This document shows, piece by piece, positions 8,555 through 29,626 of a stretch of 64,000 nucleotides of DNA (the stretch's first letter is position 1; each line of letters opens with the position of its first letter). The notes below the pieces were generated by a model. It was not told the origin of the DNA. It did no database searches and saw only the letters and a program-made list of their open reading frames with translations. The DNA comes from Leucobacter sp. UT-8R-CII-1-4 (lineage in GTDB: Bacteria; Actinomycetota; Actinomycetes; Actinomycetales; Microbacteriaceae): assembly GCF_030010235.1 (NCBI RefSeq), contig NZ_JASCRS010000001.1, positions 558,001-622,000 on the forward strand. Direction: 5' to 3'. The translations under genes and the position numbers were made by a program.

Positions 8555-8587
8555 GAGGGGGCAGAGAGGTTTTCTCTCTGCCCCCTC
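8555..8587. terminator. Terminator of the phosphoesterase gene
   Basis: A perfect 14-bp stem (8555-8568 with 8574-8587, arm GAGGGGGCAGAGAG) closes a 5-nt GTTTT loop. It lies 28 bp after the stop codon and separates the surface-protein gene from the SD-driven gene at 8627. Confidence 0.8.
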
Positions 8588-12761: not shown

Positions 12762-15335
12762 GTGACCCAACACAAGTTGCAGCGCCGCGGCGAAGAACGA
12801 CAGCAGAAGTGGCGCTATGTCGTCGCGATGACGCTCAGCGCCGTTCTGATGGGACTAGGCGTGTTCGCGACTTCGCTTTTCTCTACCCCACCTAAAACCG
12901 CGCACGCACTCGAGAACTTGCACGGCCCCGGAATTAACTGGGGCAACGGAATCCACATCCACGGCGCTGGCGCATTTATTGTGGATGGCACATACGCCTA
13001 CTGCGCCGAGATTTGGGTCAGATCGGGCACAGCAACTCCAGACTTTGTCGGGGCGAGCTCCATCCCAGCAGCAAGTTCAGACGGCGTCTCAGTAGCGTCC
13101 ACTGTTGGGGCGCCACTGCGCGAAATATCCTTTGTGTTAGCCCGATACGGGCAAACCACAAACAACATTCAGGCTGCTGCGGTCGCGCTTGCGGTGTGGG
13201 AAATTCGCGGGGCACAGGGGCGAGGCAATGCAGCCTACGAAGCTGAACTCGTCCGCGTGCGCGCGTCCGTTGGCTCAGAAGTAGTCGCCCTCACACAGCA
13301 GTTTCGGGCAGAGGCTGCGAATTGGGTCGCCTCAGTTCAAGCCTCGCCGAGCTCCGAAAGCACTCCTGGGATCACGCTTGACCCAAGCTCCCCGTACCGC
13401 GGAACCGTGAAAGTACCACTGGGTACCAGATCCCTACGAATACAAAACGGAAAGTTCTTGGATGGATCAACATCTCACGAGTGGCCCGCAAGCGGCGCGC
13501 CGCTAGGCACTTCTCTCAGCTGGGTGGGGGTACCGCCGAGTGACAGCTGGGGCAAGTTTTACCGAGTGAGCTTTACCGGCGACTACCTTGAGGTGCCAAC
13601 GTCTATCTTGTGGGCTGATGGGCAGGGGTCACAGTCGTCAATTTCCCTCACTGAGCCCAAGGTCAAGCCCCTCCGGGAGACCGCGCTAGACGCCGACACC
13701 ACCTGGCATCCCGAAGTCTCCAGCTTGGTAGGCAGCAAATATGTGAGCGTCGGTACACCACACAGCGACGACGTGGTGTTTTCATCAGCATCAGCATCAA
13801 ACGGGTTGAGTGGGGATTGGCGTTGGCGAATCTCAGAAACGGGGACGCGCGAGTGGATGCCAGTGACAGCCAGCGTTACCGCATACGGCCCATACCTGAG
13901 CGACCCGGCGCTCAACCCCTCTTTCGAGGCTCCTGTCGGCGCACCTATTGCCGCAAGAGGTTCACTCACGACTGAACCGACTCGTGATCAAAGTGTTCCG
14001 CAGCGATACAGCTTCAAGTTTGATCAGCCCATTTTGGAACAGGGCTACTACACCTACAAATGGAACATTGACGGCAGTGAGCAGCTTTTGAAAACCAATG
14101 AGCTCAGTGGCTGCTCAAAGTCCAACGAGAACGCGCTGTGTAGCGCCCTCCCGAAAAACTACTTCTTCAGCGATGGCTTCGGCACTGCCGGAGAAACCCA
14201 AATTGGAAAATCTGTGCCTGCATTCAGCACCGAAATCTCGACAACTATTACTGAACTCAACGGCACGCTGACGGATCGTATCGATGTCCCAAAAATGCAA
14301 AACTGGCTCAGAGATAGCACTGGCTCGCGAATTCCACTCACCCTTACGGGAACCGCGTATCTAGTACCAGGACCCGAACTTGCTCAATCAGTGGACGTGC
14401 CAGACTCAGCTGTTGCACTCACAACGGTTCAGGTCACCACCAACCCAGAACTCAATGAGCAAAGCCTCTATTCACCTGCGATCAGCATTCCCATCGGCAC
14501 TCCCCGAGAATTCGAGTATGTTTCCCTGCGCTGGTGTGTGATCGATGAAGACCAGTTACCTGAAGCCCGCGGACTGTGGGAAGAAGTCTGCGATGACTTC
14601 GGCCTGGCGAGCGAGTCGGCTCGAATCATCCATCCAGAGGTACGCAGTGTGGCTTCAAATGAGGCAGCACCCGGAACTGCCATCGCTGACAAGGCGATCG
14701 TAAATGGATCAGTGCCCGCAAACGCTGCTCTCGTCTTCGAACTCTTCAAAAAACCAGAGCTGGCTGGTCTCCAACCGTTGTTGGCTTCAGAACGAGCAGC
14801 CGATTCTTTGAGCGGATCTGAATTCGCCCTTGCCCAGAGCCAACCAGTGTGCACTCTTGAAAACCGGGTATTCGTATCAACGACTATTCCGGTGCAACCC
14901 GGTCTCGCCCAAAATGCGAGTTATCACTCTGAAGAGGTGAGCGTCGGCGACCCTGGGACCTACTGGTGGGTAGAGTCGCTGATCCACCGAGACCCTGACA
15001 CCGGCGAAGAGACCATTCTGCACCTTGGCGAGTGCGGCCTACCAAACGAGACCACAAGTGTGGCGTTCGAAGTGCCCGGCCCGCCTCCGGCGCTCGCGAA
15101 AACTGGTTCAGCTGCCCCATTGCCGTCAACGTTTTGGGCGACGGGAATGGTTGCTTGTGGTCTGCTTATCTGCGGCGTTGTCCGAATGACGCATGCCCGA
15201 AAAGAGGCGCGAGCGAGCACAAAGAAGCAAGAACACACAGACTGTGAAGAGGGCACGGGCCGGCATCTAGGCAGCAAGCCGACCCAAAGCAAGAGACTGC
15301 GTTTCTTCCCTGCGCATCACTTGGCGAAAATGTAG
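12762..15335 (+). CDS. Thioester-domain surface adhesin with LAKTG sorting signal
   Basis: An 857-residue protein. A signal-anchor-like export helix lies at about 24-49. The mature N-terminus has the two landmarks of thioester domains: Cys 81 in TYAYCAEIW and Gln 137 in NNIQAAAVALAVWEI. In known TED proteins these residues form an internal Cys-Gln thioester that bonds covalently to host or surface ligands. Beta-rich stalk segments follow (about 200-770), then LAKTG near 778, a hydrophobic helix and a basic cluster. Unusually, about 46 more residues follow the basic cluster, overlapping the convergent gene by 69 bp; a lost stop codon is possible. An SD (GAGGAGA, 12747-12753) serves GTG 12762 or TTG 12759. 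Confidence 0.8.
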   Translation: MTQHKLQRRGEERQQKWRYVVAMTLSAVLMGLGVFATSLFSTPPKTAHALENLHGPGINWGNGIHIHGAGAFIVDGTYAYCAEIWVRSGTATPDFVGASSIPAASSDGVSVASTVGAPLREISFVLARYGQTTNNIQAAAVALAVWEIRGAQGRGNAAYEAELVRVRASVGSEVVALTQQFRAEAANWVASVQASPSSESTPGITLDPSSPYRGTVKVPLGTRSLRIQNGKFLDGSTSHEWPASGAPLGTSLSWVGVPPSDSWGKFYRVSFTGDYLEVPTSILWADGQGSQSSISLTEPKVKPLRETALDADTTWHPEVSSLVGSKYVSVGTPHSDDVVFSSASASNGLSGDWRWRISETGTREWMPVTASVTAYGPYLSDPALNPSFEAPVGAPIAARGSLTTEPTRDQSVPQRYSFKFDQPILEQGYYTYKWNIDGSEQLLKTNELSGCSKSNENALCSALPKNYFFSDGFGTAGETQIGKSVPAFSTEISTTITELNGTLTDRIDVPKMQNWLRDSTGSRIPLTLTGTAYLVPGPELAQSVDVPDSAVALTTVQVTTNPELNEQSLYSPAISIPIGTPREFEYVSLRWCVIDEDQLPEARGLWEEVCDDFGLASESARIIHPEVRSVASNEAAPGTAIADKAIVNGSVPANAALVFELFKKPELAGLQPLLASERAADSLSGSEFALAQSQPVCTLENRVFVSTTIPVQPGLAQNASYHSEEVSVGDPGTYWWVESLIHRDPDTGEETILHLGECGLPNETTSVAFEVPGPPPALAKTGSAAPLPSTFWATGMVACGLLICGVVRMTHARKEARASTKKQEHTDCEEGTGRHLGSKPTQSKRLRFFPAHHLAKM

Positions 15336-16058
15336 CAGGGCACGAATATGCGTCGGGGAGCCCGCGGGTCGAAAATCTGGGTCTAGCAGAAGAGCAGCAA
15401 AGAGCGAGGTTTCCTTTCTTCGCGGCCTCCCTCCCCACGTAACATTCGCAATAGCTGAAATTTGCCCGCTCGTGAACTCTGGAAACTGCGCCTGCATCGC
15501 GGACCGGTCTTCGGTCTCATAGGAGAGCCGCTGCGGCGGATTTCTCGCAAGCCAGAACAGTAGACAACGAAGCGCTACCTGCTGCACACCCGGAGCATAC
15601 GCAAGAAGCATTTGGGCTGAACGGGCCACCACTTCTTCGAGCTCCGTGAGCTGATCATGGGGTTCAGGTCGAGGCAGGACCGGGCTGTGCTCAGTGAGTT
15701 CATCGCAACTGCTCAAGCAAATCTTGTGCACCCATTCAGTTGCACACACCGCTAGGTATTCCCAAGGTTCGCGTGCTTGCTCACCTATCACGCGGGCGAC
15801 TCTGCAGCCATCGGCCAAGAGCTCGAGCAACACGGCATGCAGCACCTCATCTTCCTGCAGCCAAGTTTGCGTGCCTCTGCCACTTCGAATTGCAGTTCGC
15901 ATGATTCCCGGCACCAAAAATTGTCTGAGCTGAACAATCAGCTCAGCACCATCTTTGCCAAGAAGCAGATCGGTTGACCCTGCAAGTCGCAGCAGCAAGG
16001 CGCCAAGGTCTTCTCCCGATATCTGGTCCGTTTCTCGGAGTGCTCGTGAATCGCTCAC
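15267..16058 (-). CDS. Unknown protein, third gene of the Cys/His-ParB operon
   Basis: A 263-residue, mostly helical protein that I do not recognise. Residues 35-105 (LRQFLVPGIMRTAIRSGRG, EDEVLHAVLLELLADGCRV, REPWEYLAVCATEWV) faintly recall the helices of sigma-factor region 2, but no clear -10 recognition motif is seen. The C-terminal part (SGQISAIANVTWGG, DPDFRPAGSPTHIRALLHFRQVM) could be a DNA-binding helical unit. The start is GTG 16058, 4 nt after the TAG of the ParB-like gene, so translation is likely coupled. The 3' end overlaps the adhesin gene tail to tail by 69 bp, making mutual transcriptional interference possible. Confidence 0.65.
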   Translation of the reverse strand: MSDSRALRETDQISGEDLGALLLRLAGSTDLLLGKDGAELIVQLRQFLVPGIMRTAIRSGRGTQTWLQEDEVLHAVLLELLADGCRVARVIGEQAREPWEYLAVCATEWVHKICLSSCDELTEHSPVLPRPEPHDQLTELEEVVARSAQMLLAYAPGVQQVALRCLLFWLARNPPQRLSYETEDRSAMQAQFPEFTSGQISAIANVTWGGRPRRKETSLFAALLLDPDFRPAGSPTHIRALLHFRQVMRREETQSLALGRLAA

Positions 16059-16062
16059 GGCT

Positions 16063-17163
16063 CTAAGCAGCTTTCATAGGGCGCACCGGGCTGCTTTGCC
16101 CGGCGTTTGAAATACGCTCGTGCGCGATCGAAGTGCACAGCTGCCCCGCTTCGGTAATGATCCGGCGAAGCTCTCTTGCGGGTTCGCGGTGGCGCATACT
16201 CTCTGCAGCCGAAACGTGGGCGAGCGCTATCGAAAGCGAAGATCGCACCCCCTCGATGAGCTGCGCTGAGACAAGGTCGTCGGGTTCCACTCTGCTCAAC
16301 GCCTCAAACGCGGATCCCCCCATCCGTTCAGCCAACAACGAGGTTTCAACTAGGAGTCGTTCTAGTAGCGATTCGTCCTGCCTCGCTCGCTCTGGATTCA
16401 GCCCAGCGCGAGCGGAGTTTTCTTTGCAAGCCTGCGCCGCATAGAGCAACTGACGGTAGACCGCGTCAACACTGGCACGAGACGATGCGATCTTCTGAAG
16501 CCCGTGTTTGGCTGCTGCTTGTAAATCGGTAGGCGCTGTGGTGGAGTTGGCGATCCCCCGAATGGTTGCCACTTTGTTGAGAGTATCGATCGAAAACCCA
16601 GTTATTCGTTTCGCCGCTCTTGCGAGTGATTCGGAGCGAGGCTGACTGTCTTGAGCCCCAAGCTTTACTTGGTTATTGGAATTTCCAATAACCGGGAGAA
16701 GAGGCGAGCTCACGCGTTGAGCCCGCAACGGAAACCGTTTTCGAAGTCCGGCCAATTGCCGCTGCTTGGCCTGAAACTCCAGCTCGGGAGCGTACAGGGT
16801 TCTCCACTCCCATTCGAGGTCAACAACCGAAAGCTGTTTACGCACTCGATTCGCTTCGGCAAGTAAGAGCGCACGATCCTGATCGTTTACCCGTTCAAAC
16901 ACGACCGCCGAAACAAAGCGCCAGCCGAGTTGCTTGGCTGCTTCGAGGCGGTGCAAGCCGTCGATGAGCATGAGTGTTTCGTCGACCACGATCGGCTGAA
17001 TCAGCAGTTCGCCACCAAGCAACTGAAATGAAGCAGAAAGCGCATCAACGTGTTCTTGGTTCAGGCGACGGCGAACGGTAGCAGTGTTGATTGCCTCAAC
17101 CTCAACCGCCCGCCAATTGCGCGCCAAAGGGATCACGCGAACCACACGCTGGGTCTCACTCAT
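16063..17163 (-). CDS. ParB-like nuclease-fold (ParB N-terminal domain) protein
   Basis: A 366-residue protein. Residues 10-125 form a ParB/sulfiredoxin-like domain: HVDALSASFQLLGGELLIQPIVV, cut here only for orientation, then LIDGLHRLEAAKQLGW at about 66-81, the conserved DGxHR box. The rest is helical and basic, with KRITGFSIDTLNKVATIRG near the middle resembling a HTH-containing region. The genuine chromosomal ParB normally sits beside parA near the origin; neither parA nor a canonical parS palindrome is seen here, so this is a paralogue with a regulatory or mobile-element role. ATG 17163 overlaps the preceding stop as ATGA. Confidence 0.82.
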   Translation of the reverse strand: MSETQRVVRVIPLARNWRAVEVEAINTATVRRRLNQEHVDALSASFQLLGGELLIQPIVVDETLMLIDGLHRLEAAKQLGWRFVSAVVFERVNDQDRALLLAEANRVRKQLSVVDLEWEWRTLYAPELEFQAKQRQLAGLRKRFPLRAQRVSSPLLPVIGNSNNQVKLGAQDSQPRSESLARAAKRITGFSIDTLNKVATIRGIANSTTAPTDLQAAAKHGLQKIASSRASVDAVYRQLLYAAQACKENSARAGLNPERARQDESLLERLLVETSLLAERMGGSAFEALSRVEPDDLVSAQLIEGVRSSLSIALAHVSAAESMRHREPARELRRIITEAGQLCTSIAHERISNAGQSSPVRPMKAA

Positions 17164-17564
17164 GCAGCATCACAAGCGCCATTTGAGTCACCGGGCGCGC
17201 AGTCCTGGCGAGGCCCAGCACCGACACCGACACCGACACTGGCACCGGCACCGGCACCGGCACCAACATGCCCGTCACTCCAGATCAGCGCCGCGGCATC
17301 ACTATCGTGGCGCACACAAAGATGCACCCGGTCGGGGTTCGTGCGACAGCTGCACATCAACGCACTACTCGCGTGAAGTGTGCAGTAGCTGCGCAATCGA
17401 GGAGTCAGCACCAGCACCCATCCGCGAGAGACTGCGTGTTCCATCTGGGTACGCTGCATCTCTGGTTCGGCGAAAATTGAAAACGGCTCAAGCTCGTATC
17501 GTGCCGCACAGCTGCGCAGTTCGCAACGAAGCGCAACCACTTCATGCCTGACCACTCGGCCCAT
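17160..17564 (-). CDS. Small Cys/His-rich protein, first gene of the ParB-like operon
   Basis: A 134-residue protein. Cys14-x4-Cys19 and Cys61-x2-His64 could form a zinc-ribbon-like metal site around a hydrophobic core (RGWVLVLTP). Beyond about residue 70 the sequence is low in complexity and includes alternating Gly-Ala and Gly-Val residues encoded by a hexanucleotide repeat. ATG 17564 is chosen because AAAGGAG lies just upstream; a GTG at 17615 lacks one. The last codon and stop overlap the ATG of the ParB-like gene, so the three genes form a coupled operon. The function is unknown; a DNA- or RNA-binding partner of the ParB-like protein is a guess. Confidence 0.65.
   Translation of the reverse strand: MGRVVRHEVVALRCELRSCAARYELEPFSIFAEPEMQRTQMEHAVSRGWVLVLTPRLRSYCTLHASSALMCSCRTNPDRVHLCVRHDSDAAALIWSDGHVGAGAGAGASVGVGVGAGPRQDCAPGDSNGACDAA
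17221..17268. repeat. CCGACA/CCGGCA hexanucleotide repeat
   Basis: Eight consecutive 6-bp units (CCGACA x3, CTGGCA, CCGGCA x3, CCAACA) lie inside the 3' part of the small Cys/His gene. They encode Gly-Val and Gly-Ala pairs on the reverse strand. Slippage would alter tail length in two-residue steps. Confidence 0.95.
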
Positions 17565-17686
17565 GGATACTCCTTTGCGTTGTCTTTTGCGTCTACCGCG
17601 CGATCGCTCGCTCACGACGAGCGGGTGTCGAGCAGGCTAGCAATCAACATGAGCCTGTTTTAGTGTCTGCCGGATGACACAACAAA

Positions 17687-17868
17687 ACCCCTACCGCGGC
17701 AGGGGTGTGAGCTGTTAATGCGCTGGATCGATCCAGCGCCAGCAGAGCATCTTTATTCGAAGCAAGGGAATGGTGGTGGGGTGTTGACGCCCCACCACCT
17801 CGCAGGGGATATTTTGGGGATGACCTGCGTTGGGGATATTTGAGATTCATGCTGTGAGATGAATCTCA
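17687..17868. other. Cluster of four hairpins/palindromes upstream of the ParB-like operon
   Basis: In the 473-bp gap between 17565 and 18037 four inverted repeats follow each other: ACCCCT...AGGGGT (17687-17706); the perfect 20-bp palindrome GCGCTGGATCGATCCAGCGC (17720-17739); GGTGGTGGGG...CCCCACCACC (17772-17799); and TGAGATTCAT...ATGAATCTCA (17841-17868). Two GGGGATATTT direct repeats lie between the last two. None is followed by a T-run. They could be operators, recombination sites or structured RNA. No gene is seen in this gap. Confidence 0.85.
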
Positions 17869-18638: not shown

Positions 18639-20021
18639 ATGAAGAGAAAAGCTTCCCTTGCTCTAATGACAGGAATCATGGTCACAGCGACGCTCGCGCT
18701 GAGTGGCTGTGGCGTTAGCATCTCTCACAGCGATTGGGAAAGGCGCATCTCACAATCTGACGCTGTAATTTCAGCCGACTGGGAGTACCTCAACAATTGG
18801 CCAACAGGCGGCTCCGTATATACAGGCCGAGTGATCCTCGACATGGGAATGACCGAGCAACAAGCCCGCGAGATGGCTCAACTGAGTTGCCGCGAAGATG
18901 CGATCTTTGACGAGATTCACTACGAGGCAGACTCTCAAGGTTTCAAAATTGTTGCCGAAAAGCGGGGCCTTCAAGGCAAGTGCAGCGACGAAGAAGAGCT
19001 TGCAAACTTCTCACGCATACTCGAAGTGCTTAACCGTCAGCCCGCATCATTTGAGGCAGATCTGCTGGTCTGGAGTTACGAAACAAGAACTGACTACGCC
19101 ACCGGCGAAGAAGAAACAAAGCCGCCGTCAATTCGGTTCAAAACAACCACGGTCGAAGATTTATTCGCGTTCGCTGAGCAAGCTCACGCAGCAGTAGGCG
19201 TCAACGACCCCTTTTCATTTACTGGTGCAGTCGATGAAAAGGTCTCACTACTCTCAGATACGGGCATGGAATTGGACATTGATGTTCCTGCCGGTTTGGA
19301 CCTTTCCAAGGTGTTCCCGATACTCGCTGAGGCCTATTTGCTCGATCACCGGGGCATCAAGTTCAGGGAGGACGACGGGATTGTTGTGGCCATGAACGAT
19401 CTTGAGTATCTCGCGAGCGAAGACACCAACCGGGTTCGTGAGTTGGCCGATGCTGCTGGCGTTCCGTTCAATCTGGTCTTCGGTGACAACCCTTACGGTT
19501 CTTCAACTGTCTCAGCGGTCCGGCAGCAATTTCTTGCCGACCTCGCGGTTCTGCCATCAGTAGAGTCGGCGCAGCTCGATCAACACTCGACCATCGAGGT
19601 GACCACGACGAGTGTGGCCGGAATCGATGAGGTTCTCGACTATTTCGAACAGAATGGTGGCGAGCATGTGCAGACGCTCAATGACTCGTTCGTGAACGGG
19701 GCAGACAAGGTTTCAGTGCTGCTCACGAGCACTGAAAACAAGAACTTCAAGATTCGACTTGATGGTGGAGTATCAAGCCTCAGCGACCTACGCACCATGT
19801 ACGGTGCAGCAACTGAGATACTCGCGGAAAACCCAGAGATCTACCGATTCCATATTCAATCTTGGCCAGACAAATTCCGGATCTTGGTGGAGTTTGAGGA
19901 CCATGCCTCAGCAAGCGGTGTTGAAGCCACCGAGCAGAAGCTCAAAGAGTTGCTGCCAGTCGCCACGCTCGAAGAGATTAATACTGGGCGCTTTAACGGC
20001 AGAACAGAGAAGCTCACTTGA
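18639..20021 (+). CDS. Secreted lipoprotein of unknown function
   Basis: A 460-residue lipoprotein. A short basic n-region (MKRK), a hydrophobic stretch and the lipobox LSGC (Cys 24) mark it for lipidation and display on the outer face of the membrane. The mature part is acidic, without recognisable enzymatic motifs, and has repeated alternating patterns (SVESAQLDQHSTIEVTTTSV, EIYRFHIQSWPDKFRILVEF) suggesting several alpha/beta sandwich modules of one type. A TAGGCT box (18627-18632) ends 6 nt before the ATG, so the mRNA is probably leaderless. It appears monocistronic. Confidence 0.8.
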   Translation: MKRKASLALMTGIMVTATLALSGCGVSISHSDWERRISQSDAVISADWEYLNNWPTGGSVYTGRVILDMGMTEQQAREMAQLSCREDAIFDEIHYEADSQGFKIVAEKRGLQGKCSDEEELANFSRILEVLNRQPASFEADLLVWSYETRTDYATGEEETKPPSIRFKTTTVEDLFAFAEQAHAAVGVNDPFSFTGAVDEKVSLLSDTGMELDIDVPAGLDLSKVFPILAEAYLLDHRGIKFREDDGIVVAMNDLEYLASEDTNRVRELADAAGVPFNLVFGDNPYGSSTVSAVRQQFLADLAVLPSVESAQLDQHSTIEVTTTSVAGIDEVLDYFEQNGGEHVQTLNDSFVNGADKVSVLLTSTENKNFKIRLDGGVSSLSDLRTMYGAATEILAENPEIYRFHIQSWPDKFRILVEFEDHASASGVEATEQKLKELLPVATLEEINTGRFNGRTEKLT

Positions 20022-20169: not shown

Positions 20170-20174
20170 AAATG

Positions 20175-20247
20175 TGGGCCCGGCGGGGCTCGAACCCGCG
20201 ACCCGCGGATTAAAAGTCCGATGCTCTACCAACTGAGCTACAGGCCC
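20175..20247 (-). tRNA. tRNA-Lys (anticodon UUU)
   Basis: On the reverse strand a full cloverleaf folds over 73 nt. The acceptor stem is GGGCCTG with CGGGCCC (one G-U pair), the D-arm contains AGCTCAGTTGGTAGAGC, the anticodon loop is CTTTTAA giving UUU for lysine, and the T-arm is GCGGGTTCGAGCCCCGC. CCA is not encoded. Confidence 0.96.
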
Positions 20248-29448: not shown

Positions 29449-29479
29449 GTTGCGTCTCCCTTGGGTGATGTTTCCAGGA

Positions 29480-29560
29480 TCTGCGACCCAGGCGTGCGGT
29501 CTTTTCTGCGTTGGCCGCTCCCCGGTGGTACTCCACCTATTCGCCAGTCACGACCGAGTA
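29480..29560 (-). promoter_or_regulatory. ZTP (pfl) riboswitch upstream of glyA-folD
   Basis: Read on the reverse strand, the leader contains the conserved blocks of the pfl motif in order: GTCGTGACTGGCG near 29553-29541, the hairpin GGTGGAGTACCACC followed by CGGGGAGC near 29534-29513, and CGCCTGGGTCGC near 29494-29483. This class binds ZTP/ZMP and typically turns on one-carbon and purine genes, matching the glyA-folD cargo. The remaining 30 nt before the GTG likely form the expression platform at the ribosome-binding site. Confidence 0.9.
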
Positions 29561-29626
29561 CAACTCTACCAACGAAGCGCCCTCGCCTGCCGAGTGTTTG
29601 CTTTGCTCCCGCCGAGAGGCCCCGTT

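Follow-up and report, generated by a model that had tools for sequence, protein, structure and literature searches.

Leucobacter sp. UT-8R-CII-1-4 has three minus-strand genes, for a Cys/His protein (CH), a ParB-like protein and a third product (TH), which most likely form the control cassette of a family of Leucobacter conjugative elements associated with tRNA genes, since a T4SS coupling-protein gene lies downstream of the trio in 8 of 18 loci. The copy in the analysed 64-kb stretch (the window) is most likely a stripped one, in which the trio stayed intact beside an adhesin gene, without transfer genes. All three genes lie where the original prediction had placed them, and they overlap or nearly abut as it had claimed: the CH frame runs from 17615 to 17160, parB (366 aa) from 17163 to 16063 and TH (263 aa) from 16058 to 15267, with a 4-base overlap between CH and parB and a 4-base gap between parB and TH. 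Comparison with the relatives places the CH start better at ATG 17564 than at GTG 17615, because the conserved part in the relatives begins with MGR; this gives a gene at 17160–17564 and a product of 134 aa. No internal stop was found in any of the 54 frames read (three genes, open at all 18 loci, 17 from the Leucobacter genomes with the trio plus that of L. chinensis; the TH frame of G010 ends at the contig end), and whole-genome searches of 54 Leucobacter genomes gave one set of 15 that has TH and is also the set that has CH. The predicted operon is real, and the independent distribution of its genes in relatives, named beforehand as a reason to abandon it, was not observed. Its 3′ end falls inside the adhesin gene, as proposed, with TH overlapping that convergent gene by 69 bases (15267–15335). 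Even samples of 396 genomes from 110 genera of the order and of 396 from 237 genera of the phylum, with at most six candidates scored per genome, gave no TH match outside the window's genome.

The eight loci with a coupling-protein gene are the second trio in the window's own genome (G000), G020, G006, G003, both G016 copies, G015 and G448. The first genes of a T4SS cluster were found in three further loci (G013, G435 and L. chinensis), and the G008 locus gave a relaxase-like match alone, with no other T4SS match. The Pfam matches were T4SS-DNA_transf at 1.5e-22 and, near the G020 copy, TrwC relaxase at 1.5e-71. Full copies have both the coupling protein and the relaxase that characterize an integrative conjugative element, whereas no T4SS genes were found near the window copy, as none of 16 query proteins matched within the 64 kb at E 1e-6. 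The same 16 proteins found no T4SS genes near the trio in G007, G440, G438, G010 and G028, in stretches that differ in length (only 4.96 kb for the stripped site of G010). The window and G007, G440, G438 and G010, from four other species, are the stripped loci. The gene order in full copies is a cI-like regulator, a replication-initiator-like HTH protein (phrog_1032), CH, parB, TH, a DUF2637-like gene (labelled after a relative at 5.4e-12 in the class B elements described below, the trio's own copy having no Pfam match), F19 and a large surface protein. A tRNA was found in 14 of the 18 stretches scanned, one of which (L092) repeats the window. The tRNA at which the cassette sits is tRNA-Arg for G003 but tRNA-Lys for G020 and G006, and the reciprocal sites had no trio in the stretches read. 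TH of G003 and of G020 are 97% identical. No clean empty site was seen, because G003 and G020 are homologous only up to the tRNA-Lys gene, with no further match over 34 kb. Repeats of the tRNA were also considered as att borders of the elements, but none of the tRNA 3′ ends had a second copy, a 15-mer in L023 being located outside the tRNA. The missing att repeats and empty site count against the main reading, as do the lack of T4SS matches near G028 and the lone relaxase-like match in G008. The ParB of the trio (class A) had no match among plasmids, and a plasmid location of the trio was rejected. Besides its stripped copy, G010 seems to have another one of the element type at tRNA-Arg (L091:8634-10033), truncated by the contig end, where a second CH was found.

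The N-domain profile of the ParB protein (alignment A3) matched the solved ParB structures 4umk (4.5e-13), 1vz0 (6.4e-13) and 6t1f (3e-10) in the PDB, in agreement with the predicted ParB fold. The N-domain has motifs of the GxxR and NxxR type, which assign the protein to the ParB/Spo0J CTPase-fold family; G69, R72, A75 and N105 are invariant in 16 of 16 rows and the CTP-type motifs are kept, while the window protein taken alone scored below the Pfam ParB_N cut-off (22.9 vs 26.3). A defence system was rejected, PADLOC giving weak matches to P0002 only, and a scan of the genome collection with P0002 yielded no confirmed match. A second ParB class (class B) occurs in T4SS elements of Micrococcales (L035-L042, L128-L157), with no fewer than 30 strong matches in the genomes sampled from the order and matches in two plasmid and two phage records. 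As in the trio elements, parB there adjoins a gene for a helical protein (here F15) as well as a DUF2637 gene; by contrast, the ParB proteins share only about 20% identity with those of the trio, CH was not seen, and F15 lies upstream of parB. F15 was considered as a TH homologue, which is unproven (hhalign probability 3.8).

While the inverted repeats of the window were being counted, a perfect palindrome absent from the original prediction came up inside parB, with 11-nt arms around one base (16671–16693), in the linker between the CTPase and HTH domains. The palindrome recurs at this linker in relatives from several genera. In class A, 15 of 18 parB genes have it with perfect arms of 11 nt or more, as opposed to none of 18 TH and one of 18 CH genes, on a background of 50 such repeats in 623 kb in all. 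Among the class B genes in T4SS elements, a linker palindrome was present in five of the eight first examined and in 22 of 30 from the order search (one of the 30 being a locus already among the earlier ones), and a Microbacterium plasmid copy of parB has one as well. Within a fixed part of the linker, 48 of 51 parB genes had nine or more of the 12 central pairs complementary and 33 had all 12, many of the rows being related and therefore not independent events. The best site of the gene reached 12 of 12 in 30 of 50 genes, compared with 1 of 250 draws in which synonymous codons were shuffled. One palindrome was found per element, in parB, and no further copies at up to 2 mismatches. The palindrome is probably a ParB loading site and is treated here as a candidate for one. 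Several observations count against such a role: the site is weak (under 9 of 12) in G438 and G010, two of the five stripped loci, and in the class B locus L131, it appears only below the perfect-arm threshold in the class B locus L155, and the arm length and covariation exceed the needs of a clamp site. We consider it possible, if somewhat doubtful, that the palindrome is instead a structural hairpin or cruciform (an mRNA pause, a signal in transferred ssDNA or a recombination site) and no ParB site, as its arms covary over their whole length, up to 21 nt, and its letters differ even between close ParB proteins. Against this, the site is complementary down to the central base, the innermost pair being Watson–Crick in 47 of 48, and there is no G-U excess, since the mismatches comprise six A-C and three G-T; a DNA dyad is therefore favoured over an RNA hairpin. 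In a separate set of pair counts, used for the covariation of the arms, the sites had been picked for symmetry, so that full pairing there is by construction and the variety of pair types is not. Moreover, the palindrome lies at the same place in both ParB classes with GT fixed at −10/−9 (alignment A7), and in-gene parS sites have precedents in SCP2 ParT of Streptomyces coelicolor, with parS inside its own coding sequence (PMC12260392), and in Bacillus subtilis, where parS-359 lies within parB (PMC4442127).

TH matched no Pfam, NCBIfam or PHROG family; a match to a known plasmid-maintenance family had been named as a reason to give up the prediction. Its AlphaFold model (pLDDT 82.5, pTM 0.50) aligned by VIA-align over residues 15–118 to sigma factors in 49 of the 50 matches listed, the best at Z 8.4 and 2.5 Å over 89 residues; a Z of 8.4 is attainable by unrelated helical models, which counts against a sigma reading. 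Foldseek gave no match under E 0.001 (best E 0.11). In sequence comparisons, Pfam reported no sigma family (Sigma70_r2) in 12 of 12 TH members and the TH profile found nothing in five real sigma factors of the host genome (hhalign P 0.51), and TH as a sigma factor by sequence was rejected. The sigma-like segment claimed for this protein at 15267–16058 accordingly held at the level of the predicted fold and failed by sequence: the N-terminal half, residues about 15–118, resembles sigma-factor region 2 in its predicted structure. The resemblance comes from one model, which counts against the switch reading below. CH is probably a zinc-binding protein, and the earlier suggestion of metal binding is plausible: all 12 rows of the alignment agree at eight Cys/His positions (C14, C19, C61, H64, C71, C73, C83 and H86). 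Fold searches with its model (pLDDT 79.1) gave weak zinc-domain matches only (best Foldseek E 0.97), among them the PZP zinc domain at a weak VIA Z of 2.9. At 17214–17262 the CH gene contains a run of six-base repeats, in frame and coding a Gly-Ala/Gly-Val tail, which among the aligned rows is found in the window copy only.

We infer from these features a mechanism for the cassette. The ParB dimer would bind the palindrome in its own gene, close as a CTP-type clamp and slide over neighbouring promoters, while TH, with its predicted likeness to sigma region 2, and CH, as a zinc-type protein, may act with ParB to switch the element genes; the closest targets of a stripped copy would be its own three genes and, perhaps, the adhesin. 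Even chances are given to the trio being a switch of mobile elements built on a ParB clamp and a sigma-like protein and retained in the window once the element was lost. That, in actinobacterial mobile elements, a clamp nucleated at the in-gene palindrome, whose letters would change through compensatory steps, delivers or restrains the sigma-like factor of the element together with the zinc protein, and that chromosomes kept this after element loss, is proposed tentatively, at appreciably lower odds.

The stripped loci share their surroundings. In the window, G007, G440 and G438, the trio is bordered on one side by the same chromosomal genes, C11-C13, and an F11 gene lies on its other side in these four and in G010. 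A tRNA-Lys is also on the F11 side, in the window as tRNA-Lys(ttt) at 20174–20247 on the minus strand; the exception is G007, in whose stretch no tRNA-Lys was found. The orientation of the tRNA-Lys relative to the neighbouring F11 differs between species (L026, L089, L090, L107). In the concatenated tree, the five stripped loci fall on one side of a 100% branch; the tree is midpoint rooted, and this root is a guess, which counts against the main reading. The stripped copy would have been placed near tRNA-Lys in the ancestor of the five species and kept open since. It is unlikely, in our estimate, that the trio is a partition cassette, in which ParB, through its in-gene site, would retain copies of the element that are excised or replicating and the window copy is a functionless, dying leftover. 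The single palindrome site per element and the phage replication-initiator-like gene adjoining the trio in full elements favour partition, as does the weaker constraint in stripped pairs (pN/pS of 0.34–0.63, with dS saturated, vs 0.03–0.42 in the less diverged element pairs), from which slow decay of the stripped trio is possible. The F12 regulator, a repressor, was lost in the window only among the five stripped loci, which also fits partition. On the other side, none of the five stripped species has a broken frame among the three, although protein identity is down to about 40–66%, and a ParA-type motif (a single Walker motif) had 0 matches in 35 stretches, 664,639 nt in total. A plasmid or phage partition remnant, as first suggested, was close, because the trio of the window is a remnant, albeit most likely of a conjugative element's control cassette. 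Between the upstream hairpins and tRNA-Lys the window has a lipoprotein-like gene (18639–20021), in the position that F12 occupies at the other stripped loci.

The four inverted repeats predicted upstream of the first gene are present at 17687–17868: an 8-pair stem followed by a T-rich stretch (17687–17706, minus strand), a perfect 20-bp palindrome (17720–17739) and two inverted repeats with perfect 10-nt arms and 8-nt loops (17772–17799 and 17841–17868). Of the nine repeats in the whole 64 kb with perfect arms of such a length, three lie in the 240 bp upstream of CH, compared with a mean of 0.002 and a maximum of 1 in 2000 draws from a Markov model of this region; terminator-like sites there were not above chance (4 found vs 4.0 in shuffles). 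The cluster is non-chance but confined to the window copy, as the other four stripped loci lack it ahead of CH and the genome has no second copy of it, and its proposed role as a part of the system was rejected. Elsewhere in the window, the longest perfect inverted repeat (8555–8587, 14-nt arms) directly follows a gene for a 1607-aa protein and is probably a terminator, and a ZMP/ZTP riboswitch (Rfam) was found at 29479–29561 on the minus strand.

The adhesin gene (12828–15335, plus strand), convergent with the trio, encodes a large surface protein of family F4, which presumably carries an LPXTG-like sorting signal and had no Pfam match. The adhesin as a partner peculiar to the operon was not borne out, as the family has matches in 50 of 54 Leucobacter genomes, mostly without the trio, though its closest members do adjoin trios. 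For the same reason, and because the gene lies on the far side of the trio and moved across the tRNA in G438, we think it improbable that the stripped trio was recruited as a dedicated switch of this gene, despite same-family adhesins beside it in the window, G007, G440 and G438 (the G010 contig ends too early to show this neighbour). In L. musarum CBX152, described as a nematode-attacking strain (PMC4804768), a trio element occurs together with an adhesin from this family (L087:4086-7331).

In the literature searched, no description was found of the trio, of a sigma-like partner or of a covarying palindrome. To our knowledge, no sigma-like partner of BisD is known. The original prediction of an undescribed system stands for the trio within that literature and falls for its kind, as in-gene parS sites (PMC12260392, PMC4442127) and ParB-like regulators of integrative conjugative elements (BisD, PMC12704722) are already on record. 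SCP2 ParT likewise is a ParB-like protein, encoded by an actinobacterial plasmid, with one inverted-repeat site inside its own gene; it has a ParA partner, is CTP-independent and uses an 18-bp parS (PMC12260392), whereas for the trio no ParA motif was found nearby, the CTP motifs are kept, the dyad spans 23–43 bp, and CH and TH are partners. BisD is a ParB-like CTPase that serves integrative conjugative elements of Pseudomonas putida in gene regulation (PMC12704722), in another phylum than the trio. KorB of RK2 and VirB of Shigella are ParB-family CTP clamps acting on transcription from specific sites (PMC11790492, PMC10770331); they belong to Gram-negative plasmids and are not known to come with such a trio, and the VirB sites are at promoters (PMC10770331), unlike the in-gene palindrome. 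The parS-359 of B. subtilis has the same placement within parB but belongs to a chromosomal ParABS system (PMC4442127).

If the proposed switch is true, mobile elements would gain a new control module composed of a clamp, a sigma-like factor and a zinc protein, and the stripped loci would offer an example of a chromosome keeping such a module after loss of the element. The palindrome would be the more general gain, a candidate loading site recognizable from sequence in dozens of orphan ParB genes. Because it marks a candidate site in each orphan parB, naturally occurring pairs of variants would permit direct tests of binding, clamp loading and change of specificity.
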